Part shown: positions 33,104 to 64,000 of the stretch, in pieces
Numbering within the stretch: the stretch's first letter is position 1
How the letters are laid out: each line of letters begins with the position of its first letter
From: Ruegeria pomeroyi
GTDB lineage: Bacteria > Pseudomonadota > Alphaproteobacteria > Rhodobacterales > Rhodobacteraceae
DNA length: 64,000 nucleotides
Direction: 5' to 3'
Assembly (NCBI RefSeq): GCF_021405525.1
Contig: NZ_JAGQAG010000001.1
Span: 1,426,001-1,490,000 of the forward strand
The notes under the pieces: generated by a model
What the model saw: the letters and a program-made list of their open reading frames with translations, nothing else
What the model was told of the DNA's origin: nothing
Databases searched by the model: none
Translations under genes and position numbers: made by a program

Positions 33104-34663
33104 ATGGTTGATACCGACACCCGCAAACGCCGCGGCGGAGGCCGCGCCGGCGCCGCCGCCCGCAGGGGCAAGGCCGTCATCGAGCAGATGCCGTGGCGCC
33201 TGCCGGTCAATACCGACCGCCCGACCGAGCCGCTGCCCCCCGAGGGGGTCGAGGCGATCCATGATGGCGCCATGCGCATCCTCGAAGAGATCGGCGTCGC
33301 CTTTTACAACGAAGAGGCATTGGCGCTGTTCCGTGAGGCCGGGTGCAGCGTGGATGGCGAGATTGTCCGCATGGGCCGTGACTGGGTGATGGAGATGGTG
33401 GCCAAGGCGCCGCGCGAGTTCACCCTGACCCCGCGCAACCCGGACCGCACGCTCAGGATCGGCGGCAATGTGATCCTGTTCGGCAATGTCTCCTCGCCAC
33501 CCAACTATTGGGATATGGAGATCGGCCGCAAAGTGCCCGGAAATCGCGAGCAATGCCGCAACCTTTTGAAACTGACGCAGTATTTCAACTGTATCCATTT
33601 CGCGGGCGGTTATCCGGTGGAACCGGTGGATATCCACGCCTCGGTCCGGCATCTCGACGTGCTCTATGACAAGCTCACGATCTCGGACAAGGTGATGCAT
33701 GCCTATAGCCTGGGCAAGGAGCGGGTCGAGGACGTGATGGAGATGGTGCGCATCGCCGGGGGGCTCAGTGACGAGGAGTTCGAGGCGACGCCGCGGATGT
33801 ATACCAACATCAACTCGACCTCGCCGCTGAAACACGACCATCCGATGATCGACGGCTGCCTGCGGCTGGCCCGGCGCGGGCAGGCGATCGTGGTTACGCC
33901 CTTTACGCTGGCGGGCGCGATGGCGCCGGTGACCATGGCGGGCGCCGTGGCGCAATCGCTGGCCGAAGCGCTGTGCGCCATTGCCCTGTTCCAATATGTG
34001 CGACCCGGCATCCCCTGCGTGATCGGTACGTTTACCAGCAATGTGGACATGAAATCCGGTGCGCCCGCCTTTGGCACGCCGGAATACATGCGCGCCACCC
34101 AGATGACCGGCCAGATGGCGCGGTTCTACGGCCTGCCGGTGCGGTCCTCCGGGGTCTGCGCCGCCAACGTGCCCGATGGTCAGGCCATGTGGGAGACGTC
34201 GAACTCGCTCTGGGCGGCGGTGCAGTCGGGGACCAACATGGTCTATCACGCCGCCGGGTGGCTGGAGGGCGGGTTGATCGCCAGCCCCGAGAAGTTCATC
34301 ATGGATTGCGAGGTGCTCCAGCAGATCCAGCGCTATATGGAGCCCGCGACCTATGCCACCACGCCGGACGATATCGCGTTGGAGGCGATCCGCGCGGTCG
34401 GCAATGACGGGCATTTCTTTGGTATCCAGCACACCCAGGACCGCTATACCACCGCGTTCTACCAGCCTTTCCTGAGCGACTGGAAGAATTACGAGGGCTG
34501 GGAGGCGGCAGGGGCCATCTGGACGCCCGAGCGCGCCCATCACCTGTTCAAGGAGATCATCGGCAGTTTCGAGGCGCCGGAGATGGACGAAGGGATCCGC
34601 GAGGAGCTGGCCGATTTCGTGGCCCGCCGCAAGGCCGAGGGTGGCGCGCCCACGGATTTCTGA
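33104..34663 (+). CDS. Trimethylamine methyltransferase (MttB) family protein, non-pyrrolysine
   Basis: 519 aa member of the MttB superfamily (COG5598 type). The basic, glycine-rich N-terminus (KRRGGGRAGAAARRGKAVIE) and the segment EAIHDGAMRILEEIGV are shared in style with the paralogue at 59904. The reading frame is open throughout and has no in-frame TAG, so it lacks the pyrrolysine of archaeal MttB. Homologues such as MtgB move a methyl group from quaternary amines to a corrinoid. The gene is alone, preceded by AGGAGGG and flanked by unrelated genes, and no corrinoid protein gene is nearby. The substrate is unknown. Confidence 0.86.
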   Translation: MVDTDTRKRRGGGRAGAAARRGKAVIEQMPWRLPVNTDRPTEPLPPEGVEAIHDGAMRILEEIGVAFYNEEALALFREAGCSVDGEIVRMGRDWVMEMVAKAPREFTLTPRNPDRTLRIGGNVILFGNVSSPPNYWDMEIGRKVPGNREQCRNLLKLTQYFNCIHFAGGYPVEPVDIHASVRHLDVLYDKLTISDKVMHAYSLGKERVEDVMEMVRIAGGLSDEEFEATPRMYTNINSTSPLKHDHPMIDGCLRLARRGQAIVVTPFTLAGAMAPVTMAGAVAQSLAEALCAIALFQYVRPGIPCVIGTFTSNVDMKSGAPAFGTPEYMRATQMTGQMARFYGLPVRSSGVCAANVPDGQAMWETSNSLWAAVQSGTNMVYHAAGWLEGGLIASPEKFIMDCEVLQQIQRYMEPATYATTPDDIALEAIRAVGNDGHFFGIQHTQDRYTTAFYQPFLSDWKNYEGWEAAGAIWTPERAHHLFKEIIGSFEAPEMDEGIREELADFVARRKAEGGAPTDF

Positions 34664-47174: not shown

Positions 47175-47645
47175 GGCTTTGTCAGAGGGATGGCGCTTGA
47201 GCGGGGCAGGGTGGGCAGTTAGCCTCTGAGCATACCGAAACGTGATCCTTGTAATTCCCTTCGCAGCAGCCCACAGATCATTCGTCTGGTGGTGATGCTG
47301 TAGGTCAGATTTCCGCTGTCGCTGCGCAATGTCGAGGATCTGCTTCACGAGCGCGGCGTCGATGTCAGCCACGAAACGTTCGGGTTCGTTGGCTGAACAA
47401 TAGGGCGGAGAAATCACATTCGCCATTCCTATGAAGAGAGGGGGTATTCAACGCTTCAAGTGAATGCGAAGTTTGCAGATGTTTGCTGCCGTCATGACTC
47501 GGCCTTCAATCACTTCAATTCGAAGTGCGGCCTCACCAGCCCACAGAGTTTCAAATTCAACCGCGCCGTCACCCTAGCCGAGTGGTGTCAGCTTGCCGCG
47601 GCAGAAAGGGTAGGGTTACTGTTCCAGCTGAGACCAGTTCGAGAC
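47175..47645 (+). mobile_element. IS6-type insertion sequence relic A (internally deleted)
   Basis: This segment matches the IS copy at 62811-63649 at both ends. It begins with GGCTTTGTCAGAGG (an IS-end-like 14-mer, 11 of 14 bases as in copy C), then the transposase 5' region (47220-47396), then jumps to the transposase 3' region (from about 47397, TGGCTGAACAATAGGGCGG). About 300 bases of the middle are missing. The start codon is lost (ATA in place of ATG), and the frame carries the same amber codon (47301-47303) as copy C. The right end is degraded after about 47645. It is non-functional. Confidence 0.85.
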
Positions 47646-51726: not shown

Positions 51727-51934
51727 GGTCTTGCCACAAGGCATAGGGTTGAGACGGGCAGGGTGGTTCACGCCTCAGTCTTCAACTATTTCAACTAGGA
51801 GCGCAACCTCACCAGCCGACAGAATTTCAAGCTTAACCGCGCCGCCGTCTAGCCGAGTGGCGCCAACTTGCTGCGGCATAAAGGGCAGGGTTACTGTCCG
51901 AGCTGAGATCGGTTCGAAGCTGTCTGACACCTCC
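51727..51934 (+). mobile_element. IS6-type relic B (both ends kept, middle deleted)
   Basis: A 208-base mini-copy of the 62.8-kb IS. Its left part starts GGTCTTGCCACAAGG and continues through GGTTGAGACGGGCAGGGTGG. It then jumps to the transposase 3' region (from about 51770, CGCCTCAGTCTTCAAC) and runs to the same right end as copy C (CTGTCTGACACCTCC, ending 51934). About 620 internal bases are missing relative to copy C. The right end is fused into the tetR reading frame on the other strand. Confidence 0.85.
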
Positions 51935-52604
51935 CAGAAATGGCCTTCGCGCTGGTAGCAGGGTCCAAGAAATGGATGGGGAACAGCCCGGCTAGGAAGC
52001 GCCTCACAAGTTCCATCGCCCAAACGCGCGAGAAATTCTCCATGTCGGTCAGGTAGTGCACCCACATGCCCTCAAGCAGCGCTAGCGTGCCATGGGTGGC
52101 ATCTTCGGCGAGAGTTGCCGATGCCCCCTCCTCGCCAGCTATTTCTTCAAAGGCGGAGCGCAGTTTTTGCACCAAACGCTCGTCTTGGGTGCTGGTGTAT
52201 TGGGCGATCCCGGGGTGAGAACTTGCCGCGCCGCGGAATGCATGCCAGATCTTGATCCCGCGCGGGCTGAGTAGGGTTTCGGAAAGATCGGCGACGACGA
52301 TCGCCATCACACGCACCGCCGGGGGGGCGTCGCCGATGTCGGTCATCCGATCCATTTTTGAATAGTAGTGCTCGCTGAACTGCTTGGCCGCTGCGGTTAC
52401 CAGATTGTCCTTGCCGCCAAAATGCAGGTGTACCATTCCGCGCGACAATTCCGCCCGGTGAATGATGTTTGTGACTGAGGCCTCCGTCAGGCCGCTTTCA
52501 GCGATCGTGTCGAGAGTCGCGTCGATCAATGCCTGCCGGCTGGCTTCTGGATCACGCTTGGCTGGTCGGCGTCGACGGTGTTTGGTTGAGGTAATATCTT
52601 TCAT
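51891..52604 (-). CDS. TetR/AcrR-family (BetI-like) repressor
   Basis: 237 aa. N-terminal helix-turn-helix (ALIDATLDTIAESGLTEASV, then TNIIHRAELSRGMVHLHFGG, about residues 25-65) with the KDNLVTAAAKQF continuation typical of BetI-like TetR proteins. The ligand domain has LLEGMWVHYLTD. The last 13 residues and stop codon come from the right end of IS relic B, so the natural C-terminus was replaced. It is divergent from the ABC transporter operon, whose promoter carries a perfect palindrome (52679-52698), the likely operator. The start at 52604 (MKDITSTKH) has a weak ribosome site. Confidence 0.86.
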   Translation of the reverse strand: MKDITSTKHRRRRPAKRDPEASRQALIDATLDTIAESGLTEASVTNIIHRAELSRGMVHLHFGGKDNLVTAAAKQFSEHYYSKMDRMTDIGDAPPAVRVMAIVVADLSETLLSPRGIKIWHAFRGAASSHPGIAQYTSTQDERLVQKLRSAFEEIAGEEGASATLAEDATHGTLALLEGMWVHYLTDMENFSRVWAMELVRRFLAGLFPIHFLDPATSAKAISGRCQTASNRSQLGQ

Positions 52605-52648
52605 ATTCAACCATGTAGATCGATTTCCATCAAATTTCAAAGAGTAGA

Positions 52649-52678
52649 TTGACACAAGCACTGCCGCCGCGCAATACT
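52649..52678 (+). promoter_or_regulatory. Promoter of the methylamine/ABC operon
   Basis: A perfect -35 box TTGACA (52649-52654), an 18-base spacer and AATACT (52673-52678) as a fair -10 box. The palindromic operator begins on the next base, so a bound repressor would block transcription start. The promoter lies in the divergent gap between tetR and the first permease gene. Confidence 0.65.
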
Positions 52679-52698
52679 TAATGGACAATCGTCCATTA
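52679..52698. promoter_or_regulatory. Perfect palindromic operator, probable TetR-family binding site
   Basis: An 8-bp perfect inverted repeat TAATGGAC / GTCCATTA with a 4-base spacer (AATC). The dyad directly follows the -10 box of the operon promoter and lies 75 bases from the tetR start. The length and symmetry fit TetR/BetI-type operators. Its ATG at 52681 is part of the dyad and is not the permease start. Confidence 0.8.
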
Positions 52699-52731
52699 GG
52701 GAATTTAGGCAGGCCAGGTCGGGGAGGTCCG

Positions 52732-53592
52732 GTGTTCAAGCCCAGAAGCGAAGCGGCCAGAGGATATGCTCTCAGTTCGCCTGCCACGGCCTATGTCGGC
52801 TTTCTGGTGGCGGCGCCGCTTGTCATTCTGATCACCTATTCCTTCTGGACGCAGACCTACGTTACGCTTGATAAGACGCCCACGCTCGGGAACTATCGCG
52901 CCGCGCTGTCCGATCCGCTGGTGCATCACCTGATGCTGCGTTCGATCTGGATCGCTGGCGCGGTCACTCTGGCGACCGTGGTGCTGGCCTATCCGATTGC
53001 CTATTTCATCGCGATGAAGGCCCGGAGAAAAACGATCTGGCTCTTGTTGATCACCATTCCCTTCTGGTCCAGCTACCTGCTGCGGGTGTTCGCATGGAAG
53101 CTGATACTGGGATTCAATGGCGTGATGAACTCGGCGCTACTGGGGCTCGGCCTGATCGATGAACCGCTTGATTTTCTGCTTTATAACGAGTTTGCAGTGG
53201 TGCTGACTCTGGCTCATGCCTGGGCCCCGTTCGCGATCCTGCCGATCTATGTCAGTCTGCAAAAGATCGACCCCAGCCTGCTTGAAGCAGCGACCGACTT
53301 AGGCAACAGCCCGCTGCAAAGGTTCCTGCGCGTGACGCTGCCGCTTACCGTGCCCGGTATCATTGCCGCCAGCCTGATCATTTTCGTCCCAACGGTGGGC
53401 GATTATGTGACCCCCGCGCTGGTGGGCGGGTCGGATGGCAAGATGATCGCCAACCTGATTCAGGTTCAATTCGGTGCTGCGAACAACTGGCCTTTAGGAG
53501 CCACGCTGTCGCTTTTGGCGATGATGTCGGTCGGCTTTGTGGCAATCGTGTTCGTCATCGCGGGTCGCGGTTTGGGGGGGCGAATTAGATGA
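52732..53592 (+). CDS. ABC transporter permease (spermidine/putrescine PotB type)
   Basis: 286 aa with six predicted helices. The EAA-type loop is seen in LLEAATDLGNSPLQRFLRVT (about residue 183). The first helix begins YVGFLVAAPLVILITYSFWT. The GTG at 52732 is chosen as start because GGGGAGG lies 4 bases upstream; the upstream in-frame ATG (52681) sits inside the operator and would put leader residues into it. It partners the next permease and the ATPase. Substrates of this family are polyamines, betaines or related cations. Confidence 0.87.
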   Translation: MFKPRSEAARGYALSSPATAYVGFLVAAPLVILITYSFWTQTYVTLDKTPTLGNYRAALSDPLVHHLMLRSIWIAGAVTLATVVLAYPIAYFIAMKARRKTIWLLLITIPFWSSYLLRVFAWKLILGFNGVMNSALLGLGLIDEPLDFLLYNEFAVVLTLAHAWAPFAILPIYVSLQKIDPSLLEAATDLGNSPLQRFLRVTLPLTVPGIIAASLIIFVPTVGDYVTPALVGGSDGKMIANLIQVQFGAANNWPLGATLSLLAMMSVGFVAIVFVIAGRGLGGRIR

Positions 53593-54374
53593 AACGTCCT
53601 TCACTCCTTGTGATCTACGCCTTTGCCTATTTGATCTTCCTTTACCTGCCGGTGATGTTCTTGCCGCTGTTTTCGTTCAACAGTGGAACCATCGTTGCAT
53701 TTCCGATCAAGGGCTGGACACTTGACTGGTACCGCAAGCTGGGCGAGCAGGATACCCTGATCCAGGCGCTTTGGAATTCGCTGGGTGTCGGTGCAGTCAC
53801 GGCATTGCTGGCCACCGCCATGGGGCTGTTCGCTGCCCGCGCTTTTGTTCGCTACCGGTTTCGTGGTCAGGCTGCGGCCGAGGGGCTGGTGATGCTGCCG
53901 CTCGTCATTCCCGGCATCATCGTTGCCTCGTCGATGCTGGTGCTGTTCTTGTTCCTTGGTCTGCAGCCGTCGTTGGTTACGGTCACGCTGGGGCATACCT
54001 TTCTGGCACTGCCTTTTGCCGTATCGATCCTGAAATCCGCCTTTGACGATTTCGACGCCTCGCTCGAAGAGGCTTCTTATGATCTGGGCTGTGGCGTGTT
54101 CGAGACTTTCCGGCGTGTCACCCTGCCGGTTGTTGCCCCGGGCATCGTCGCCAGCATTCTGGTGACCTTTACCGTCAGCTTCGACGAATTCGTGCTGGCC
54201 TTCTTTCTGTCTGGCAACCAGCCAACCCTGCCGGTCTACATCTGGAGCCAGATCCGCTTTCCGGCCAAGCTGCCCAATGTTCTGGCGCTTGGTTCCATTC
54301 TGCTTTTCGCCTCGGCCATGCTCTTGGTGCTGGCCAAATATTTCCAACGCCGCTCAACAACTCGAGACGTCTGA
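53589..54374 (+). CDS. ABC transporter permease (PotC type)
   Basis: 261 aa with six predicted helices and the coupling loop LEEASYDLGCGVFETFRRVT (about residue 158). The N-terminus (LLVIYAFAYLIFLYLPVMFL) is typical of the second permease in PotABCD systems. It overlaps the first permease gene by ATGA and the ATPase gene by one base. Confidence 0.88.
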   Translation: MKRPSLLVIYAFAYLIFLYLPVMFLPLFSFNSGTIVAFPIKGWTLDWYRKLGEQDTLIQALWNSLGVGAVTALLATAMGLFAARAFVRYRFRGQAAAEGLVMLPLVIPGIIVASSMLVLFLFLGLQPSLVTVTLGHTFLALPFAVSILKSAFDDFDASLEEASYDLGCGVFETFRRVTLPVVAPGIVASILVTFTVSFDEFVLAFFLSGNQPTLPVYIWSQIRFPAKLPNVLALGSILLFASAMLLVLAKYFQRRSTTRDV

Positions 54375-55492
54375 TGACCGAGAAAAACATCATAGAACTC
54401 AAAGGCGTCGAGAAACGCTATGGCAGTTTCCTGGCGGCCTCCGGGATCGATCTGGACCTTCGTCAGGGCGAATTCTTCTCTTTGCTGGGGCCGTCGGGCT
54501 GCGGCAAGACCACGGTGCTACGAATGATCGCGGGTTTCCAGGAACCGACACAGGGCGCCATCCTGATCGATGGGCAAGACATGGCCGGCGTGCCGGCCAA
54601 CAACCGTCCCACCAACATGGTGTTCCAGAGCTATGCCATTTTTCCGCATCTGAATGTGGCCAACAACGTGGCCTATGGGTTGCGCGGGCGGGTGCCCAAG
54701 GCCGAGATCGACGCCCGCGTGACCGAGGCGCTGGAGATGGTTGAATTGGGAGGGTTGCACCAACGCGGAGCCAATGAGCTGTCTGGCGGTCAGCGCCAGC
54801 GGGTCGCACTGGCCCGCGCACTGATCATGCGACCCAAAGTGCTGCTGTTGGACGAGCCGCTCTCGGCGCTGGACAAGAAACTTCGCGAACAAATGCAGTT
54901 CGAAATGCGTAACCTGCAACAATCGCTGGGTATCACCTTTGTCATGGTCACACACGACCAATACGAGGCTATGACCATGTCCGACCGCATCGGCGTGATG
55001 TTTGATGGCCGCCTGGAGCAAGTAGACACGCCGGCCACGCTTTATGCGCGCCCCTGCAACCGGGCGGTGGCCAGTTTCATCGGAGAGATGAACATCCTGC
55101 CGGCCACTGTACTGGAGGAAACCGGGGGCATGCTTTCCATTGAAGCGGCCGGGTTTGGCCGCATGCGGATCGAACGAAATGTCAACGCCACCGATCGGGC
55201 ACGCGACATCATTGTCGGCATCCGCCCCGAACAGCTGGAAATCAAGGCCGACAAACCCGCCGACTATCCTGCCACGCTGAAAGGTAAAATCAGCAATGTC
55301 GCCTTTTACGGTGAGAACATCCACTATCATGTCGCGGTCGAGAATATCGACAAACCGATCGCGGTGTCGGTGCCGAACTATTTCCACACGGTCGATTTCA
55401 ATCGCGGTGACGCGGTCTGGTTGGGCCTGCAAGTGGCCAGTGTGATCGATTTGGGTAAAGAAAGAAAATCAAGCCAACGGGAGAAAACATGA
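54374..55492 (+). CDS. ABC transporter ATP-binding protein (PotA type)
   Basis: 372 aa. Walker A LLGPSGCGKTTVLRMI (about residue 38), Q-loop MVFQSYAIFPHLNV (about 83), signature ELSGGQRQRVALARAL (about 135) and Walker B VLLLDEPLSALD (about 157) are complete. A C-terminal TOBE-type domain (about 280-365, ILPATVLEETGGMLSIEAAG) is typical of PotA/OpuCA-like ATPases that serve polyamine or betaine importers. Confidence 0.93.
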   Translation: MTEKNIIELKGVEKRYGSFLAASGIDLDLRQGEFFSLLGPSGCGKTTVLRMIAGFQEPTQGAILIDGQDMAGVPANNRPTNMVFQSYAIFPHLNVANNVAYGLRGRVPKAEIDARVTEALEMVELGGLHQRGANELSGGQRQRVALARALIMRPKVLLLDEPLSALDKKLREQMQFEMRNLQQSLGITFVMVTHDQYEAMTMSDRIGVMFDGRLEQVDTPATLYARPCNRAVASFIGEMNILPATVLEETGGMLSIEAAGFGRMRIERNVNATDRARDIIVGIRPEQLEIKADKPADYPATLKGKISNVAFYGENIHYHVAVENIDKPIAVSVPNYFHTVDFNRGDAVWLGLQVASVIDLGKERKSSQREKT

Positions 55493-56550
55493 GACTTCAA
55501 GGCATTGCAGCATTCGCACTCGCGACCGCCATCAGCACCGGCTGCGCCAGCGCCGGGGGGGCGGACCTGAGCGTTTTCGATTGGTCGGGCTACGAGGATC
55601 CGGGCTTTTTCGCCAGCTACATGGCGAAATACGGGAACGAGGCGCCCAGCTATTCCTATTTCGGCAGCCAGGAAGAGGCTTTTACGAAGCTTATGTCGGG
55701 CTTTACCGCCGATCTTGCACATCCCTGTTCGGACGCAGTGCGCAAATGGGTGGCGGCCGACCTGATCAAGCCGCTGGATGAAAGCAAGCTGACCAACTGG
55801 GCCGATATGCTGCCCGAGATCAGGGAGGTCGACGGCATCGTTCTGGATGGCAAGCTCTACATGCTGCCCTTCGAATGGGGCAATACCGGCCTGATCTATC
55901 GCACCGACAAGATCGCTGCCGACGCGGTCTCGCTGCAACTGCTGGCCGATCCCGCCTATGCGGGCAAGATCGCCATTCCCGATGCGGCCTCGTCGGCCTA
56001 TGCGCTGGCTTCGCTGGCCACCGGCAACGGCGCCGATTACACCAATCTGAGCGACGAACAGTTCAAGGAAGCGTCGGATTTCCTGCGCGCGATTCATCCC
56101 AACATGCGGTTCTACTGGTCGGATGCGGGCCAGCTGGACCAGGCGATGACCAGCGGCGAGATCGAAATGGGCTGGGCCTGGAACCAGTCCGAGCTGAACC
56201 TGATCTGGAACGAAGTGCCCGCCGCGATGATGCGGGACGTCGACAAGGGTATCGCCACCTGGGTCTGTGGCTATGTGCATCTGAAATCCTCGACCACGCC
56301 GGACGAACAGGTCTATGACCTGCTCAACGCGCTCACCGATCCTGTCAGCGGTCAGTACATCATCGACAACTGGGGGTATCCGCATTCCAACGCCAAGGCG
56401 TTCGAGATGGCCGATCAGGCCAACATCGAGGCCTACGGGTTCTCCGATCCTAAAAGCTTCTTCGAAGGCAGCCTGTTCTTTGACGCGGTGACGCCGGAAC
56501 TCGAGGCCAAAATGCTGGCCGAGTTCGAGCGGATCAAGGCCGGCTTCTAA
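55489..56550 (+). CDS. Extracellular solute-binding protein (PotD type)
   Basis: 353 aa with an N-terminal signal (ALATAISTGCASA) and the PotD/SBP fold (DLSVFDWSGYEDPGFFASYM, about residue 26, then EWGNTGLIYRTDKIA, about 127). PotD-like proteins bind polyamines or quaternary amines through acidic and aromatic residues; the aromatic-rich segments WSGY and FYWSDAGQ fit a cation-binding pocket. The ligand is not known. A hairpin follows the gene at 56567. Confidence 0.87.
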   Translation: MRLQGIAAFALATAISTGCASAGGADLSVFDWSGYEDPGFFASYMAKYGNEAPSYSYFGSQEEAFTKLMSGFTADLAHPCSDAVRKWVAADLIKPLDESKLTNWADMLPEIREVDGIVLDGKLYMLPFEWGNTGLIYRTDKIAADAVSLQLLADPAYAGKIAIPDAASSAYALASLATGNGADYTNLSDEQFKEASDFLRAIHPNMRFYWSDAGQLDQAMTSGEIEMGWAWNQSELNLIWNEVPAAMMRDVDKGIATWVCGYVHLKSSTTPDEQVYDLLNALTDPVSGQYIIDNWGYPHSNAKAFEMADQANIEAYGFSDPKSFFEGSLFFDAVTPELEAKMLAEFERIKAGF

Positions 56551-56566
56551 TTCACTCATTTCGCCG

Positions 56567-56584
56567 GGGGCGCCTCTGCGCCCC
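56567..56584 (+). promoter_or_regulatory. GC-rich hairpin after the binding-protein gene
   Basis: A 6-bp GC stem (56567-56572 with 56579-56584) with a 6-base loop, 17 bases after the stop codon and 30 before the next gene. There is no T-run. In ABC operons such hairpins often stabilise the upstream mRNA, so the binding protein is made in excess of the downstream enzymes. That role is inferred from position. Confidence 0.5.
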
Positions 56585-56613
56585 TGGCCCCGACGGATAG
56601 GAACACGCGCGAT

Positions 56614-58677
56614 ATGTCCGACGCGAACCCATACGCTTTGCTTTTTGAACCGGTTAAGATCGGCCCGGTAACAGCCCGCAACCGGTTCTTTCAGGTACCG
56701 CATTGCACCGGGCTGGGTCATCTGCGTCCGCGCGCCGATGCCGGTGTGCGGGGGATAAAGGCCGCTGGCGGCTGGGCGGTGGTTTCGAACCAGGAAACCG
56801 AGATTCATCCCACCTCGGATCTTTCGCCCTTTCCCGAGGGGCGGCTTTGGGATGACCGTGACATTCCAGCTTTGCGGCTGATGACGGACGCCGTGCACGA
56901 ACATGGGGCGTTGGCCGCGATCCAGCTGGTGCATAACGGCAACCACGCCGTTAACCATCTGAGCCGCGCGCCGATCTTGGCCCCCTCCGAGATGAGCGCC
57001 GATCTGGCGATGCCGAAACACGCCCGCGCCATGGACAAGACCGATATCCGCGAGTTGCGCCGCTGGCACCGAGATGCAGCGCTGCGCGCCAAACAGGCCG
57101 GCGCCGATATCATTTATGTCTATGCCGGACATTCCATGTCGATCGCCCAGCATTTCATGCTGCCGCATATGAACACCCGCAGCGACGAATATGGCGGGTC
57201 GCTGGAAAACCGCGTGCGGCTTGCGCGCGAGTTGCTGGAGGACACGCGCGAGGCGGTGGGCGACACCTGTGCCGTGGCCTTCCGTTTCGCCATTGACGAG
57301 ATGCAGGGACCCGACGGCATGCAGGCCGCCGAAGAGGGCCGCGCCGTGGTCGAGTTGCTGGCCGATCTGCCCGACCTGTGGGATGTCAATGTTTCGGGCT
57401 GGGACAATGACAGCATCACCACCCGGTTTCAGCCGCAGGACGGATACCAGAACGACGTACTCGCCTTCGTCAAGCAGGTGACCGGCAAGCCCGTCGTGGG
57501 CGTGGGCCGGCTGACCTCGCCCGACCTTATGGTGTCGATGGTCAGAAAGGGGATCGTGGACCTGATCGGCGCGGCGCGGCCCTCGATCGCCGACCCGTTC
57601 CTGCCGACCAAGATCCGCGAAGGCCGCATCGACGAGATCCGCGAATGCATCGGCTGCAATATCTGCGTCGCCTCGGACAATCTGGGCATTCCGATCCGCT
57701 GCACCCAGAACCCGACCATGGGCGAGGAATGGCGGCGTGGCTGGCATCCCGAGGTCATCACCTCGAAGGGCAAGCAGAACGAGGTTCTGGTGATCGGCGG
57801 TGGCCCGGCCGGGCTGGAATGCGCCATGCAGATGGCCCGGCGCGGCTATGAGGTGACACTGGCCGAGGCATCGTCCGAATTCGGCGGGCGCGTGGCCCGT
57901 GAAAGCCGCCTGCCGGGGCTGTCGGCCTGGGGCCGGGTGATGGACTATCGCCTGAACGACCTGAACCGGCGCGCCAATGTGCGTATGTTCACCAACAGCG
58001 CGCTGGATGCGGCGCAGGTCGCCGAACTGGGCATCGGCAACGTGTTTGTGGCGACCGGCGCCCATTGGCGCCGCGACGGCATCGGCCGCAACACCCAACG
58101 CCACGCACCAGACATCGCGGCGGGCGCAACCATCCTGACACCCGACGACATCCTGTCGGGCCAGATGCCCCCTGTGGGCCCGGTCCTGGTCTATGATGAC
58201 GACAATGTCTATCTGGCGGGCGTGATTGCCGAGAAGCTGGCCTTGGCCGGTCTGGAGGTGATCTTTGCCACGCCCGAGAGCCTGGTTTCCAGCTTCACCG
58301 TGAACACTCTGGAACAGCATCGCATTCAGGCCCGGCTGATCGACCTGGGCGTGGACATCCGCTGCAACCAGAAGCTTGCGGCGCTTGGCACAGGCAATGC
58401 CACCCTGACCTGCGCCTTTACCGGGCGACAGCTACCGGTGGTCTGCGAGTCTGCGGTGCTGGTGACCGAGCGCATCCGCGAGACCACCCTGCACGCCAGC
58501 CTGAAGCCGCTGAACCTGACCACGCTCGAGCTGATCGGGGATGCCGCGCAGCCGGGCCTGATCGTCGATGCGGTATTCTCCGGCCATCGCGCCGCCCGTG
58601 ATTTCGAACGCCCGAGACAGGATGCCGACAAGGATTGGTTCCGCCGTGAAATCATCGACCTGAGAGAGGAGTCGTGA
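56614..58677 (+). CDS. Trimethylamine-dehydrogenase-like flavoprotein (old-yellow-enzyme/Fe-S/NAD-type)
   Basis: 687 aa with the three-part plan of trimethylamine dehydrogenase and DgcA-like demethylases: an OYE barrel (1-370), an iron-sulfur motif and a C-terminal pyridine-nucleotide-like domain (about 390-480, EVLVIGGGPAGLECAMQMAR). Cys31 in QVPHCTG matches the TMADH cysteine that binds FMN covalently. The [4Fe-4S] ligands are Cys345, 348, 351 and 363 (ECIGCNICVASDNLGIPIRC). The active-site Tyr and His appear as YVYAGH. It probably oxidises a secondary or tertiary N-methyl amine to formaldehyde and the smaller amine. First enzyme gene after the transporter. Confidence 0.88.
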   Translation: MSDANPYALLFEPVKIGPVTARNRFFQVPHCTGLGHLRPRADAGVRGIKAAGGWAVVSNQETEIHPTSDLSPFPEGRLWDDRDIPALRLMTDAVHEHGALAAIQLVHNGNHAVNHLSRAPILAPSEMSADLAMPKHARAMDKTDIRELRRWHRDAALRAKQAGADIIYVYAGHSMSIAQHFMLPHMNTRSDEYGGSLENRVRLARELLEDTREAVGDTCAVAFRFAIDEMQGPDGMQAAEEGRAVVELLADLPDLWDVNVSGWDNDSITTRFQPQDGYQNDVLAFVKQVTGKPVVGVGRLTSPDLMVSMVRKGIVDLIGAARPSIADPFLPTKIREGRIDEIRECIGCNICVASDNLGIPIRCTQNPTMGEEWRRGWHPEVITSKGKQNEVLVIGGGPAGLECAMQMARRGYEVTLAEASSEFGGRVARESRLPGLSAWGRVMDYRLNDLNRRANVRMFTNSALDAAQVAELGIGNVFVATGAHWRRDGIGRNTQRHAPDIAAGATILTPDDILSGQMPPVGPVLVYDDDNVYLAGVIAEKLALAGLEVIFATPESLVSSFTVNTLEQHRIQARLIDLGVDIRCNQKLAALGTGNATLTCAFTGRQLPVVCESAVLVTERIRETTLHASLKPLNLTTLELIGDAAQPGLIVDAVFSGHRAARDFERPRQDADKDWFRREIIDLREES

Positions 58678-58678
58678 C

Positions 58679-59911
58679 ATGACCGGACGCCCCCCCGAAC
58701 TGGACGCGCTGATTGCCGAATACCACCCCGGACTGGCCATGCCGCGCGGGTTTTACACCTCGCAAGCGATCTATGATCACGATATCGCGCGGGTCTGGAA
58801 CCGGAACTGGCTCTGGGCCGGGCACGAAAGCCAGATCCCCGAGGCTGGGGATTATGTCTTGCTCGATTACGGGTCGGAATCGATCATCATCGTGCGCGAC
58901 CGCGACGGCGGGGTGCGCGCACATTTGAATATCTGCCGGCATCGCGGCTCGCGCATCTGCACCGAGGCTGAGGGAACGGCGCGCGTCTTTGCCTGCCCCT
59001 ATCATGCCTGGACCTTTGAGTTGACAGGCGAGTTGCGCGCGGGCCGGGCTATGGGGCCGGATTTCGACCCCTCGCGCTGGGGGCTGTTCCCGGTCCGGGT
59101 GACGCTGTTCCAGGGACTGATCTTTGTCTGCTGCGACGCGGACACACCGGCACTGGAGCCGGCGCTGGCGCAACTGGCCCCGCTGACCGCGCCCTATGGG
59201 CTGGACCGTCTGAAGGTGGCGCACAAGGCCAGCTATCCGGTGCTCGCCAACTGGAAACTGGCGGTCGAGAACTATCTGGAATGCTATCATTGCGGCCCGG
59301 CGCATCAGGAATATTCGCGCTCGCACAGCCTGAAATCGCCCAAGGAAATGGCCGAGCTCGTGGGTCCGCTAGCGGAACGCGCGGCGGCGGCGGGGCTGTC
59401 CTCCGAGATGCTGGACCTGACCGGGGCGGCCGCTCCGACGCCGTTCACCGGCGCCTATCTGCGCCGCTATCCGCTTTATCCCGGCTACGATACCGGCAGT
59501 CGCGATGGCGCGCCCCTGGCACCGCTTCTGGGTGACCTCAAAGGGTATGACGGCGGTGCCACCGACATGGGGATCGGGCCACTCAACTGGTTCCTGGTCT
59601 ATTCCGATCACCTGGTCGGCTACCGTTTCCTGCCCCGCGACGTGCAGCAGACCGACATCGAGGTGGTCTGGATGGTCCATGCCGACGCTGAAGAGGGGCG
59701 CGACTATGACCGCGAAGCGCTCACCTGGCTCTGGCATGTCACCTCTCAGGATGACGAACGCATCATCCGGCACAATCAGGCCGGCGTGAACTCGGCCTAT
59801 TTCCAGCCCGGCCCGTTGAGCGAAATGGAAGGCTGGGTGGGCGATTTCTACAACTTCTATCTACGCATGATCGGGCCGGACCCAGAATTCAGGAAGGCAG
59901 CAAATGGTTGA
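58679..59911 (+). CDS. Rieske-type oxygenase alpha subunit (GbcA/stachydrine demethylase-like)
   Basis: 410 aa. The Rieske [2Fe-2S] motif is complete: Cys86-x-His88 and Cys106-x2-His109. The catalytic domain carries the mononuclear iron site with NYLECYHCGPAHQEYS (about residue 200) and a late acidic ligand region. Related Rieske enzymes (glycine betaine, carnitine and stachydrine demethylases) hydroxylate an N-methyl or aliphatic position with release of formaldehyde. No reductase or ferredoxin gene is in this cluster, so electrons must come from elsewhere. It starts 1 base after the TMADH-like gene and overlaps mttB. Confidence 0.87.
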   Translation: MTGRPPELDALIAEYHPGLAMPRGFYTSQAIYDHDIARVWNRNWLWAGHESQIPEAGDYVLLDYGSESIIIVRDRDGGVRAHLNICRHRGSRICTEAEGTARVFACPYHAWTFELTGELRAGRAMGPDFDPSRWGLFPVRVTLFQGLIFVCCDADTPALEPALAQLAPLTAPYGLDRLKVAHKASYPVLANWKLAVENYLECYHCGPAHQEYSRSHSLKSPKEMAELVGPLAERAAAAGLSSEMLDLTGAAAPTPFTGAYLRRYPLYPGYDTGSRDGAPLAPLLGDLKGYDGGATDMGIGPLNWFLVYSDHLVGYRFLPRDVQQTDIEVVWMVHADAEEGRDYDREALTWLWHVTSQDDERIIRHNQAGVNSAYFQPGPLSEMEGWVGDFYNFYLRMIGPDPEFRKAANG

Positions 59912-61472
59912 GACACCCACAAAACCCCGTCGGCGGGGTGGCGGCGGACGTGCCGCGCGGATCGCGGTGCAGCAGGCGACCACCGGTAACGAGGCGGTAC
60001 ATGGCGGGATGCAGGGCGGGCGGTACAAACCGCTCAGCCAGCGCGACATGGAAAGCATCCACTCGGCCGCGCTGACCGTGCTGGAACGCACCGGCGTGTC
60101 CGATCACTTTCCCGAATTGCTGGATCTTGTCCTGCCCAAGGGCGCGGTGCTGAACGAACATGGCCGCCTGTGCTTTCCCCGCGCGCTGATGGAGGACCTG
60201 CTCTCTGTCGCCGCAAAGGAGTTCTATGTCTTTGCGCGAGGCGAGCGTGAGGGCAAGGATGACATGCACTGCACCGCCGAAAGCGTCTATTTCGCCAATT
60301 CGGGCACGGCGGTCACCACCTTCGACTACGAAACGAGGTCCTATCGCCCCTCGACCCTGCGCGACGTCTACGATTTCACCCGGCTGGTGGATCAACTGGA
60401 AAACATCCACATGCTGGGCGATACGGTTCTGGCCACCGATGTGACGGACGATTTCGCCCATGACATGAACACCGTCTACGCGATGCTGGCGGGCAGCCAG
60501 AAACCCGCCTGCCTGACCTTTCGCGACCGCAGCCACATCCCGCACGCGATCCGCATGTTCGACCTGGCCTCGGGCGGCGAAGGCAGTTTCATGAAAAAGC
60601 CCAGCGTGATCTTTGGCGGCTGCCCGATGGTTTCGCCCCTGCGGATCGGGCGCGAGAACATGGAGCTTCTGATCGACACCGCCAAACTGGGCCTGACCGT
60701 CGATCTGGCGGTGCCGCCGCAGGCCGGGGCCACCGCCCCCGCCACGCTGGCCGGAACACTGGTGCAGACCGTGGCCGAAACCCTCGCTTGCGTGGCAATC
60801 GTCAACCTGATCACCCCCGGCTGTCCGGTCTGCTTTGCCGCCTGGCCCTTCATCACCGATCTGCGCAGCGGCTCGTTCACCGGGGGCAGCGGCGAACAGG
60901 CGCTGATCGGGGCCGCCGCGGTACAGATGGGCAATTTCTATGGCCTGCCCACTTCCGTGGGCGCGGGGATGACCGACGCCAAGGTGCCTGATGCGCAATA
61001 CGGGTTGGAAAAGGCGCTGACCTTTTCGCTGGCCGCCCATGCGGGTGCCAACCGGCTGTGCGAGTTCGGCGGCATGATCGGCAGCTTGATGGGATGCAGT
61101 TTCGAAAGCATGGTCATCGACGACGAGGCCGGCGGCATGATCCTGCGCACCCTGCGCGGGATAGAGGTTTCGGACGAGACCATGGCCGTGGACGTGATCC
61201 ACAAATGCGCCCTCGACCCCGGTCATTTCCTCGGCAACTCCCATACGCTCACCTACATGAATACCGAGTTCGTCTATCCGCAGCTGATGGATCGCGAGCG
61301 CACCGACACCTGGGAGAACGAGGGTAAGACTGACCTTCTGGAACGGGCGCGGGACAAGGCCAACACGATCTTGGACAGTCATTTCCCCAACTATTTCGGC
61401 GCCGCCGACGCAGAGGTGCGTGCGGAGTTTCCGATCATCATGTCAGAAGAGGAGATGGCTCGCCGTGGATAA
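59904..61472 (+). CDS. MttB-family methyltransferase, non-pyrrolysine (second paralogue)
   Basis: 522 aa MttB-superfamily protein, distantly similar to the gene at 33104 (shared basic Arg/Gly N-terminus and SIHSAALTVLERTGVSD-type segment). No in-frame TAG occurs, so it is the pyrrolysine-free type, as MtgB. Such enzymes take a methyl group from a quaternary amine and pass it to a cobalt corrinoid protein, which is not encoded in this window. In an operon with TMADH-like and Rieske enzymes, it may remove the first methyl group from the quaternary amine or compete with the Rieske enzyme. It overlaps both neighbouring genes by 8 bases. Confidence 0.83.
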   Translation: MVETPTKPRRRGGGGRAARIAVQQATTGNEAVHGGMQGGRYKPLSQRDMESIHSAALTVLERTGVSDHFPELLDLVLPKGAVLNEHGRLCFPRALMEDLLSVAAKEFYVFARGEREGKDDMHCTAESVYFANSGTAVTTFDYETRSYRPSTLRDVYDFTRLVDQLENIHMLGDTVLATDVTDDFAHDMNTVYAMLAGSQKPACLTFRDRSHIPHAIRMFDLASGGEGSFMKKPSVIFGGCPMVSPLRIGRENMELLIDTAKLGLTVDLAVPPQAGATAPATLAGTLVQTVAETLACVAIVNLITPGCPVCFAAWPFITDLRSGSFTGGSGEQALIGAAAVQMGNFYGLPTSVGAGMTDAKVPDAQYGLEKALTFSLAAHAGANRLCEFGGMIGSLMGCSFESMVIDDEAGGMILRTLRGIEVSDETMAVDVIHKCALDPGHFLGNSHTLTYMNTEFVYPQLMDRERTDTWENEGKTDLLERARDKANTILDSHFPNYFGAADAEVRAEFPIIMSEEEMARRG

Positions 61473-62805
61473 CACCGAACTCAGAGCCTGGGATAACGGT
61501 CATTTCGTTCACCCGTGGGAAGGCATGGCCGCTGTAGGTCAGAACGACCGAACTTTTGTCGAAACTGCCAGCGGCATTCATATCGTCAACGACAAGGGCG
61601 AACGGCTGATCGACGGGCCCGGCGGCATGTGGTGCACCCAGATCGGTTACGGCCGCACAGAGATGGCCGATGCGATGGCGGAACAGGCGCGTCAGCTTGC
61701 CTATTTCTCGCCCTTCAACAACACCAACTCGATCGCCACACGGTTTGCTCGCGAACTGGCAAAGCGGGCGCCGGGCGATCTGAACCACGTGTTCTTCACC
61801 ACCGGCGGCTCTACCGCGGTCGACAGCGCCCTGCGGTTTATCCAGTTCCGCAACAACCTGATGGGACATCCCGACAAGAAGATCGTAATTTCACGGCAGA
61901 AGGCCTATCACGGCAGCACCTATCTGGCCGCCAGCGTCAGCGGCAAAGAGCGTGACCGGCTGTGGTTGGATAAGGCCGATGACCTGGCCCATTTCCTGCC
62001 GAATGTGAACCCGCTGTATCGTGCCGAGGGCCAGAGTGTCGCGGACTTCCTGGACGAAAAGATCGCGGATCTGGAAAACGCGATCCTGACCTTTGGGGCG
62101 GATAGGGTGGCCGCCTTCATCGCAGAGCCAATCCTTGCGTCGGGCGGAGTGATTGTCCCGCCCGAAGGCTATCACAAGCGCTGTCTCGAAATCTGCCGCC
62201 GCCATGACGTGCTCTATATCTCTGACGAGGTCGTGACCGCCTTCGGGCGGCTGGGTCACTGGTTCGCCTCGAAGGACGTGTTCGGCATTCAGCCCGATAT
62301 CATCACCTGCGCCAAGGGAATGACATCGGGTTATGCCCCGATGGGGGCCGCGATCATTTCCGACCGGCTGATTGCCGACATCGCCGGGAACGATGCCACA
62401 TTCTCAAACGGGTACACCTATTCCGGCCATCCGGTTTGCGCCGCCGCCGGGCTGACCAGCATGGAGATCATCGAACGCGAAGGCATTCTGGAACATGTCC
62501 GGCAGGTCGCGCCGGTGTTCCAGGAACGGCTGCACGATCTGCGCCGGATCGGCATTGTCACCGACACCCGCGGCATGGGGCTGATGGGGTGCGTGCAGTG
62601 CTCGCTCGACGGGAATAAAACCAGCTTGCTGGAAGGCGACTATGAGATCGGCGCGCGGATCGATGCCGAATGCCAGAAACGGGGTCTGCTGGTTCGACCT
62701 ATCATCAATATGTGCGTGATGTCACCGCCCCTGATCATCAGTGAGGATCAGATTCACCAAATGTTTGATGTCTTGGGGGACGGAATCCGCGCGTCGGAAA
62801 TATGA
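61465..62805 (+). CDS. Class III aminotransferase (omega-amino acid type)
   Basis: 446 aa PLP enzyme of the omega-transaminase group. The pyridoxal lysine is about Lys284 (TCAKGMTSGYAPMGAA), and the DEVVTAFGRLG segment (about residue 253) and FTTGGSTAVDSALRF (about 111) are typical. It transfers the amino group of an amine or omega-amino acid to pyruvate or 2-oxoglutarate. GTG 61465 is chosen: it follows a GAGGAG-type ribosome site and overlaps the mttB end. In this operon it would take the primary amine left after demethylation. IS copy C begins 6 bases after its stop. Confidence 0.86.
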   Translation: MDNTELRAWDNGHFVHPWEGMAAVGQNDRTFVETASGIHIVNDKGERLIDGPGGMWCTQIGYGRTEMADAMAEQARQLAYFSPFNNTNSIATRFARELAKRAPGDLNHVFFTTGGSTAVDSALRFIQFRNNLMGHPDKKIVISRQKAYHGSTYLAASVSGKERDRLWLDKADDLAHFLPNVNPLYRAEGQSVADFLDEKIADLENAILTFGADRVAAFIAEPILASGGVIVPPEGYHKRCLEICRRHDVLYISDEVVTAFGRLGHWFASKDVFGIQPDIITCAKGMTSGYAPMGAAIISDRLIADIAGNDATFSNGYTYSGHPVCAAAGLTSMEIIEREGILEHVRQVAPVFQERLHDLRRIGIVTDTRGMGLMGCVQCSLDGNKTSLLEGDYEIGARIDAECQKRGLLVRPIINMCVMSPPLIISEDQIHQMFDVLGDGIRASEI

Positions 62806-62810
62806 GTTGT

Positions 62811-63649
62811 GGTATTGTCAAAGGTATGAACGGCGGTCTCAGATGGCATCCGGTTGAGACGGGCAGGGCGGTCTCGTAGCCTCTGAGGATGCCGAGACGC
62901 GATCCGTTCATATACTTCCACAGCAGTCCAGAGATCATTCGTCTGGCGGTGATGCTGTAGGTCAGATTTCCGCGATCGCTGCATAATGTCGAGGAGCTGC
63001 TTCACGAGCGCGGCGTCGATGTCAGTCACGAAACGATCCGGTTCTGGTGGCAAAGGTTTGGCCCGATGCTTGCGTCCGAGATCCGCAGGAAATGCGCGGA
63101 TCGGCTTCGGTCCTGGCCGCAGTGGCGTTGGCACTTGGATGAGATGTTCGTGAAGATCAATGGCGAGCGGTACTACCTTTGGCGGGCCGTCGATCACGAA
63201 GGCGAGGTCCTGGAAAGCTTTGTGACAAAGACGCGGGACAAGAAGGCTGCATTGAAAATCCTCAGAAAATCAATGAAGCGCCACGGTCGACCTCATGTCC
63301 TGGTGATCGACCGGTTGAGGTCCTATGGTGCGGCGATGAAAGCCATCGGCAATGCCCATCGGCAGGAAACGGGTCGCTGGCTGAACAACAGGGCGGAGAA
63401 TTCGCATCTGCCATTCCGACGCCGCGCGCCGGCAATGCAACGCTTTCGGCGCGTGCGAAGTTTGCAGAAGTTTGCTTCCGACCACGCCTCGGTCTTCAAC
63501 CATTCCAACTCGCAGCGCAGCCTCACCAGCCGACAGAATTTCAGGTTGAACCGCGCCGCTGCTCTTGTCGAGTGGCGCCAACTTGCTGCGGCATAAAGGG
63601 CAGGGTTACTGTCCGAGCTGAGACCGGTTTGAAGCTGTCTGACACCTCC
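62811..63649 (+). mobile_element. IS6-type insertion sequence copy C (near complete)
   Basis: An element of about 839 bases, bounded by GGTATTGTCAAAGG on the left and, inverted, GGAGGTGTCAGACA on the right, which share GG and TGTCA as imperfect terminal repeats. A further inverted 9-base repeat occurs inside (62834-62842 and 63618-63626). It contains the transposase at 62889. The length and DDE-type transposase fit the IS6 family. It is tightly inserted between the aminotransferase stop and the end of the betaine-type ATPase gene. The exact ends remain approximate. Confidence 0.8.
62889..63596 (+). pseudogene. IS6-family transposase with an in-frame amber codon
   Basis: The full frame from ATG 62889 to TAA 63594 would encode 235 aa, the normal length, but codon 24 is TAG (62958-62960) where active relatives typically have Tyr (MLYVRFP). 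After it come the DDE residues in WHLDEMFVKINGERYYLW (first Asp), VLVIDRLRSYGAA (second Asp) and NNRAENSHLPFRRR (Glu). The catalytic core is otherwise open from ATG 63066. Relic A has the same amber codon. Unless it is read through or restarted, this copy is inactive. Confidence 0.85.
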
Positions 63650-63660
63650 TCATTGTGCTG

Positions 63661-64000
63661 TCAGTTCCGCCGCGTGCTCGCGTCTGATGCAACGCGCGGC
63701 ACCAGTGCTTTGACCAAGTTTGTCATATCGAGCGTTCCCTCAGGCACACCATCGCGCATCACGATAAAACGATGCGACGTGTCGCCGCCCGAGCGGGCAA
63801 TCATGCTTTCCAGCGTATCGTCATGATCGACCTCGCCATGGGCGTCGGGCGGTACCGGCTGCCCATCGAGCGGAGTCATGATCGAGCGGACCCGCAGCAC
63901 CCGGGCCCGGTTGATGTCGCTGACGAAGTCCTCGATATACGGATCGTTCGGATTGAGCAGGATATGCTGCGGCTCGCCCTGCTGCACGATATAGCCGTCC
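63661..64000 (-). CDS. C-terminal part of a glycine betaine/proline-type ABC transporter ATPase (partial)
   Basis: The visible 112 residues, read on the minus strand from the window edge, begin DGYIVQQGEPQHILLNPNDP, then YIEDFVSDINRARVLRVRSI. This is the end of the ATPase domain and the start of the CBS-type region found in ProV/OpuAA importers of glycine betaine or proline betaine. The last part (SHRFIVMRDGVPEGTLDMTN) is CBS-like. The gene runs off the window. Its stop codon is 12 bases from the right end of IS copy C. The substrate fits the methylamine theme of the neighbouring operon. Confidence 0.8.
   Translation of the reverse strand, partial: DGYIVQQGEPQHILLNPNDPYIEDFVSDINRARVLRVRSIMTPLDGQPVPPDAHGEVDHDDTLESMIARSGGDTSHRFIVMRDGVPEGTLDMTNLVKALVPRVASDASTRRN

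Follow-up and report, generated by a model that had tools for sequence, protein, structure and literature searches.

The 64,000-nucleotide stretch of Ruegeria pomeroyi DNA analysed here (the window), from a source genome of 4.5 Mb in four contigs, carries a conserved and regulated operon. It encodes a Pot-type ABC importer, a flavoprotein of the histamine dehydrogenase (HADH) and trimethylamine dehydrogenase (TMADH) type, a Rieske oxygenase (RO), an MttB-superfamily methyltransferase and a class III aminotransferase (AT). We consider it probable that MttB and RO are interchangeable enzymes for the first demethylation of a single imported quaternary compound, whose conversion the flavoprotein and AT would finish. 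The genes, which were identified from open frames and family-profile matches, and the control sites are the following:

51891 to 52607, minus strand: TetR-family repressor, BetI-like by family matches (PF13977, PF00440), under the BetI equivalog cut-off
52649 to 52678, plus strand: sigma-70-like promoter TTGACA-18-AATACT, the sole promoter-like site in 52500-63100
52680 to 52697, no strand: operator palindrome AATGGACAATCGTCCATT (18 bp), kept at the operon start in relatives
52732 to 53592, plus strand: PotB-type permease; its open reading frame (ORF) opens at 52681 in the operator, likely start GTG 52732
53589 to 54374, plus strand: PotC-type permease, open frame with family match
54374 to 55492, plus strand: PotA-type ATPase, exceeding TIGR01187 (380.3 bits, cut-off 355.6)
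55489 to 56550, plus strand: PotD/PotF-type solute-binding protein, with PotF acidic ligand positions lost and invariant Trp/Tyr
56614 to 58677, plus strand: HADH/TMADH-type flavoprotein with covalent-FMN Cys31, 4Fe-4S cysteines and Glu61/Trp263/Asp355
58679 to 59911, plus strand: Rieske oxygenase, Stc2/GbcA-like by family and structure matches and cluster ligands
59904 to 61472, plus strand: MttB-superfamily methyltransferase, non-pyrrolysine, by family and structure matches
61465 to 62805 (start approximate), plus strand: class III aminotransferase, exceeding NF005447 (645.5 bits, cut-off 618)

All genes named in the original prediction, from TetR to the aminotransferase, were found with intact frames, and the overlaps and short gaps described there are confirmed, with overlaps of up to 8 nt and gaps of up to 63 nt at the junctions. 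The prediction of one regulated unit is supported by a conserved operator beside the sole promoter-like site detected, the palindrome sitting directly behind TTGACA-18-AATACT. As shuffled sequences alone average 3.3 promoter-like sites, compared with the one actually found in 52500-63100, the promoter call rests on conservation: TTGACA precedes the palindrome in 16 of 17 aligned upstream regions, and the palindrome AATGGACRATYGTCCATT is present in all 17, with one mismatch in two. PotB probably starts at GTG 52732 and not at ATG 52681, because the latter falls within the conserved operator. Over 92 loci (1.60 Mb) there are 44 exact and seven one-mismatch operator sites, spread over 50 loci, while one base-shuffled copy of these loci gave zero sites with two mismatches or fewer. 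In 49 of these 50 loci, a site is adjacent to the gene for PotB, TetR, AT, MttB or the flavoprotein; in L083 it lies ahead of a binding-protein-like ORF (by eye), followed by the flavoprotein. Nine Leisingera-lineage loci have a second upstream site with two mismatches, and seven palindrome matches in further loci were all duplicates of counted operons. In L078, a gammaproteobacterial metagenome-assembled genome (MAG) of the Oceanospirillaceae, one operator stands before the flavoprotein and another between divergent AT and MttB, and AT is therefore tied to the regulon in that locus. The TetR protein, which does not reach the equivalog cut-off of the BetI choline repressor TIGR03384 (100.8 vs. 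201.3), would block transcription when bound to this putative site.

The evidence that carries our reading is the exchange of RO and MttB between otherwise equivalent operons. After removal of six duplicates, 63 distinct loci with the HADH-like flavoprotein were compared, of which 10 (L105, L133-L140, L142) came from flavoprotein searches and the rest from MttB searches or the window, so that the set is biased to MttB. Both enzymes are present in 35 (window included), MttB only in 19, RO only in six and neither in three (L142 being cut just downstream). A fairer, even sample of 394 same-family genomes contained 16 with the flavoprotein at an identity of at least 60%: three with both enzymes, six with MttB only, six with RO only and one with neither, i.e., 12 of 16 retain only one of the two. 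In two genomes of the MttB-only class (G245 and G326), MttB lies on another contig or is unlinked to the flavoprotein. Among the other 378 family genomes, none had MttB at 74% or above, and a single one (G141) had RO with at least 60% identity. For sampled family genomes in which RO or MttB is missing beside the flavoprotein, searches found no close relative of it elsewhere at the thresholds applied (E 1e-150 for MttB, E 1e-90 for RO), the separate MttB of G245 and G326 apart.

The flavoprotein is directly followed by MttB, with RO absent, in many operons, e.g., in that of Shimia aestuarii (L020), whose flavoprotein is nearest to the window's on the tree. Conversely, the run PotBCAD-flavoprotein-RO without MttB is seen in L133, L135 and L137 (with TetR matched in L133 and L135), flavoprotein-RO with AT in L134 and L136, and flavoprotein-RO alone in L138. 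The operator accompanies all three architectures: MttB-only (L020), RO-only (L133, L135, L136) and both (window). On a quick tree of the flavoprotein with long branches, 11 label changes are needed for RO and five for MttB.

It had been predicted that MttB, RO and the flavoprotein act in sequence on one compound, at methylation levels that differ for each enzyme, and all three do share one operon here and in the 35 loci mentioned. However, MttB-only and RO-only operons are common, have the same flavoprotein pocket and in many cases the same importer and operator, and the missing enzyme has no close relative elsewhere in the sampled genomes at the thresholds used. We therefore regard a three-step sequence as quite unlikely, as RO and MttB are each absent from many otherwise equivalent operons. 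The gene set is indeed conserved in Rhodobacterales and beyond, as expected, but the 63-locus split does not support a unit of three obligatory demethylases. Most simply, the two enzymes would be alternatives for one step, doing the same job ahead of one flavoprotein, because each is missing elsewhere, no close relative was found to replace it in those sampled genomes at these thresholds, and the pocket is alike across classes.

A scan of genome contigs for MttB gave 78 loci, of which 77 were used (L097, a weak and partial match, was dropped) and 75 fall in one MttB cluster. Near these 77 we counted the flavoprotein in 50, TetR in 37, PotC in 36, RO in 30 and AT in 29, and these are undercounts due to the choice among overlapping ORFs. 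Even the distant relatives of MttB found in L114 and L115 (45-49%) have Pot genes nearby. The distribution of MttB is patchy, since at E 1e-150 it occurs in 11 genomes of the even family sample (394) and, among 398 genomes of the phylum, only in that of the window. G031, the one further representative of this genus in the sample, lacks it at that level.

The flavoprotein had been called TMADH-like, with Cys31 and Cys345/348/351/363 as ligands. These residues are present, and the covalent-FMN and 4Fe-4S cysteines are of the TMADH type, but among solved relatives histamine dehydrogenases score highest (720 and 712 bits, compared with 653 for 6l6j and 500 for TMADH); a literature search for the structure 6L6J turned up no relevant paper. 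The aromatic bowl of TMADH consists of Tyr60/Trp264/Trp355, and the pocket of histamine dehydrogenase of Gln65/Trp267/Asp358. In the flavoprotein, the corresponding positions, which we take to have ligand roles as in HADH and TMADH, are Glu61, Trp263 and Asp355, i.e., the bowl is absent, and of the histamine dehydrogenase pocket Trp and Asp are kept while Glu stands in for Gln in all 63 loci. Conservation is high (Glu61 63/63, Trp263 63/63, Asp355 61/63 with Glu in two, Cys31 59/63), and the pocket residues are alike in all architecture classes. Since histamine dehydrogenases are nearer than TMADH, and Glu and Asp occupy the positions of TMADH Tyr60 and Trp355, the flavoprotein could instead deaminate a primary amine and be no demethylase, with MttB or RO taking one methyl group only. 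We hold this to be unlikely, because AT alongside would then be duplicated, and because DgcA and StcD, flavoproteins related to it, act as N-demethylases. In S. meliloti pSymA, considered as a possible case of a shared operon, only the flavoprotein (56%) was found within 20 kb, where its neighbours include a semialdehyde dehydrogenase gene.

With regard to the two candidate first demethylases, the Rieske ligands of RO are complete, as predicted: the CxH...CxxH cluster is formed by Cys86, His88, Cys106 and His109, and an ECYHC site was found. RO does not reach the GbcA equivalog NF058607 (289.4 vs. 670), and its best solved match is 3vca (241 bits), which together with 4qup we take to be Stc2. 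The operon MttB belongs to its superfamily with 336.2 bits to PF06253 (cut-off 25), is matched by solved glycine betaine and trimethylamine methyltransferases, stays below the pyrrolysine trimethylamine methyltransferase model TIGR02369 (361.6 vs. 525), and its frame is free of in-frame UAG and internal stops. It is a divergent member among eight MttB-family genes of the source genome (336 bits to PF06253, compared with 580-779 for five of its seven paralogues).

The corrinoid partner had been placed outside the window, and a genome search indeed found one B12-binding_2 protein, with a DUF1638-like gene near it (by eye), as named for SPO2160 and SPO2162 in Ruegeria pomeroyi. There are two pterin-binding genes, the lower-scoring being the MtgD candidate, and one RACo-type activase, so that by gene presence the genome holds the corrinoid protein, second methyltransferase and activase of a corrinoid methyltransferase system. 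According to a report on this species (PMC12478193), neither the demethylation of glycine betaine nor the synthesis of methionine can do without MtgC and MtgD. Because both proteins are needed in the two pathways, shared MtgC-, MtgD- and RamA-like genes most likely serve the operon MttB as well. MtgC was found at 84-100% in 19 of 19 genomes examined.

Other MttB genes were observed along the way. A second family member in the window (33104-34663) scores 744.7 bits to PF06253, above the operon MttB, with no obvious operon around it. For another divergent MttB of the same genome (C1:2508177, in L132, C1:2500500-2516500), inspection by eye shows a second Pot-type ABC importer close by, together with an amidohydrolase-like gene, and L115 has a similar trio. 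One family genome (G200) has 22 MttB-family matches (some partial), compared with 2 to 14 in the 18 others examined.

From the genes, residues, operator, exchange pattern and MtgC-, MtgD- and RACo-like genes, all directly observed, we infer enzyme activities, step order and substrate as follows. A TetR/BetI-like repressor would sit on the palindrome at the start of the eight-gene operon until an inducer, probably the substrate or first product, frees it. The Pot-type ABC importer would take up a quaternary N-methyl compound, whose first methyl group may leave by two routes, both seemingly kept by the source genome: from MttB by way of MtgC, the only corrinoid protein, and then MtgD to tetrahydrofolate, with RamA reactivating the cobalt, or by the Rieske oxygenase with O2 and release of formaldehyde. 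The HADH-like flavoprotein would next oxidise the tertiary or secondary amine, and AT would take the final primary amine. Of the stepwise import, demethylation and transamination originally proposed, import and N-demethylation remain the likely theme; the three successive enzyme steps do not.

Several observations weigh against our reading. For the Rieske reductase, which was expected elsewhere in the genome, there are nine reductase-like matches, the best with 32% identity to a GbcB-like query, none of them assigned to this enzyme. MtgC and other MttB paralogues are present in all six RO-only genomes, therefore their presence does not track the operon MttB, and MtgC, being found in both groups, fails as a separator of MttB and RO-only genomes. 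The operator was not found in 42 of the 92 loci, some of which are cut short, which does not apply to L134, L137, L138 and three loci of the BCCT type. Glu61/Trp263/Asp355 also occur in three plasmid homologues (L102-L104) with no MttB or RO seen in their annotated neighbourhoods. Of the 54 loci whose downstream sequence is long enough, only 31 have AT near the flavoprotein, and in L055-type loci AT is encoded on the opposite strand and no separate operator site was detected for it. Finally, many MAG loci, some on short contigs, have MttB without the flavoprotein.

As for the substrate, the binding protein is far from the polyamine equivalogs (68.1 vs. 582 for PotD, 63.6 vs. 636 for PotF). The positions of PotF D39, E185 and D278 are Gly, Ser and Cys, and that of D247 is a gap or Asn, in a weak alignment (65-70 bits); we take these four to be the acidic amine ligands of PotF, and their loss argues against an ordinary polyamine. 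Trp32, Tyr35, Trp130, Trp210, Trp231 and Trp258 are invariant in 21 aligned sequences. The AlphaFold model of this protein is poor (mean pLDDT 54.3). In L035, L037 and L039 a BCCT carrier (below cut-offs) stands directly upstream of the flavoprotein and MttB, with Pot genes absent, and in five further loci a BCCT homologue (86-89%) lies beyond AT. AT passes the PRK07036 aminotransferase equivalog NF005447, whose name does not give a substrate.

The lost acidic ligands with six invariant Trp/Tyr, the replacement of the importer by BCCT carriers in three loci, and the omega-amino-acid enzymes among class III aminotransferases would suit a zwitterionic omega-betaine (e.g., beta-alanine or gamma-aminobutyric acid betaine), the demethylated amine of which would go to AT. 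Its carboxylate, however, would be repelled by Glu61 and Asp355, given the ligand roles of these positions in related enzymes, and we find this substrate possible but doubtful. Within the model of alternative first demethylases, a quaternary amine bearing a second group of the amino or guanidino type has better prospects, although still somewhat short of an even chance. The quaternary nitrogen would be favoured by MttB, the Rieske type and the BCCT carrier replacing the Pot importer, and the second group by Glu61/Asp355 and polyamine-gene neighbours. These neighbours (agmatinase, deiminase, amidase) are suggestive only as guanidino clues. An agmatinase lies beside the operon in six Leisingera-lineage loci (over the cut-off for the one protein tested). 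In L034/L107 (same genome), an agmatine-deiminase-like gene and an N-carbamoylputrescine amidase follow AT with a 4-nt overlap; in L034 (11551-14833), MttB, AT, the deiminase-like gene (under its cut-off) and the amidase (over its cut-off) form one run. Deiminase-like genes are also near MttB in seven proteobacterial MAG loci.

Some other neighbours were considered and rejected as substrate clues. For an enolase-superfamily neighbour in Leisingera, taken as a possible betaine epimerase, the best named families were sugar-acid dehydratases, under cut-off; two enolase-superfamily genes in L109 fell under the cis-3-hydroxyproline dehydratase cut-off; and the gene behind AT in L020, a creatinase by eye, had no NCBIfam match at E 1e-30.

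The operon is flanked by insertion sequence (IS) remnants:

51769 to 51934, plus strand: IS6/IS240-type remnant, left flank, 91% over 167 nt to the right-flank element in the same orientation
62851 to 63660, plus strand: IS6/IS240-type element, right flank, with DDE_Tnp_IS240 in 63066-63596

The left remnant overlaps the TetR frame by 44 nt at its 3' end. A further remnant at 47194-47642 has the same orientation as these two, as direct repeats, and two more lie further right; the genome search located IS6/IS240 matches, six in all, at five sites, every one of them in a 37-kb region around the operon. A matching IS sequence lies near the operon of a relative (L022), and the window's operon was probably acquired as one module. 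Remnants on both sides, confined to this genome region, might mean that IS6-type elements merely collected unrelated catabolic genes, but order, overlaps and operator are kept in many genera, the operator even in a gammaproteobacterial MAG, which makes such a collection highly improbable. By eye, the interval between 47194-47642 and 51769-51934 encodes a Lon-like protease as well as a stress-protein-like product. To the right of the IS element (63661-63999 and L100, 862-11382) there are choline/betaine-type ABC genes, with an ATPase that crosses the window edge and whose fragment in the window is under cut-offs, followed, by eye, by M24 peptidase-like, GntR, two Asp/Glu racemase-like, PhyH-like and dimethylglycine-dehydrogenase-like genes; this flank looks like another amine or osmolyte module.

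If MttB and RO are alternatives, having both would mean demethylation with or without oxygen, with the methyl group going to folate or formaldehyde. The loci resemble a natural exchange experiment, in which operator, flavoprotein and often importer are constant, and a B12-dependent methyltransferase, an oxygenase or both are used for seemingly one reaction. This pattern points to a methylated nitrogen compound and makes the substrate findable by standard tests, and the conserved operator can be used as a probe for the regulon. To speculate, and only tentatively, this would be a mobile regulon of marine Rhodobacterales for a quaternary diamine or guanidino-amine (e.g., trimethylated putrescine or agmatine), with freely exchangeable corrinoid- and O2-dependent first demethylases. 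The gene set was not named in the titles or abstract openings that a literature search found; a description inside a paper's body is possible.

In comparison with known systems, the importer resembles PotABCD/PotFGHI polyamine importers in subunits and ATPase subfamily, while its binding protein is far under the PotD/PotF cut-offs and lacks the PotF acidic ligands. The flavoprotein shares length, Cys-FMN, 4Fe-4S and the pocket Trp and Asp with histamine dehydrogenase (3k30, 6de6), but has Glu61 for Gln and stands in an operon with N-demethylases. Stachydrine catabolism in Sinorhizobium employs the Rieske protein Stc2 and the flavoprotein StcD, and the present operon likewise pairs a Rieske demethylase with a TMADH-type flavoprotein; unlike that system, it has an MttB that can replace or join the Rieske enzyme, a Pot importer, a BetI-like repressor and an aminotransferase. 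Closest to home is MtgBCD of Ruegeria pomeroyi, described in PMC12478193 as an MttB-superfamily enzyme with shared MtgC, MtgD, RamA and DUF1638, which likely have counterparts in the source genome. Compared with MtgBCD, the operon MttB is divergent and is placed with a Pot importer, an HADH-like flavoprotein, a Rieske oxygenase and an aminotransferase.

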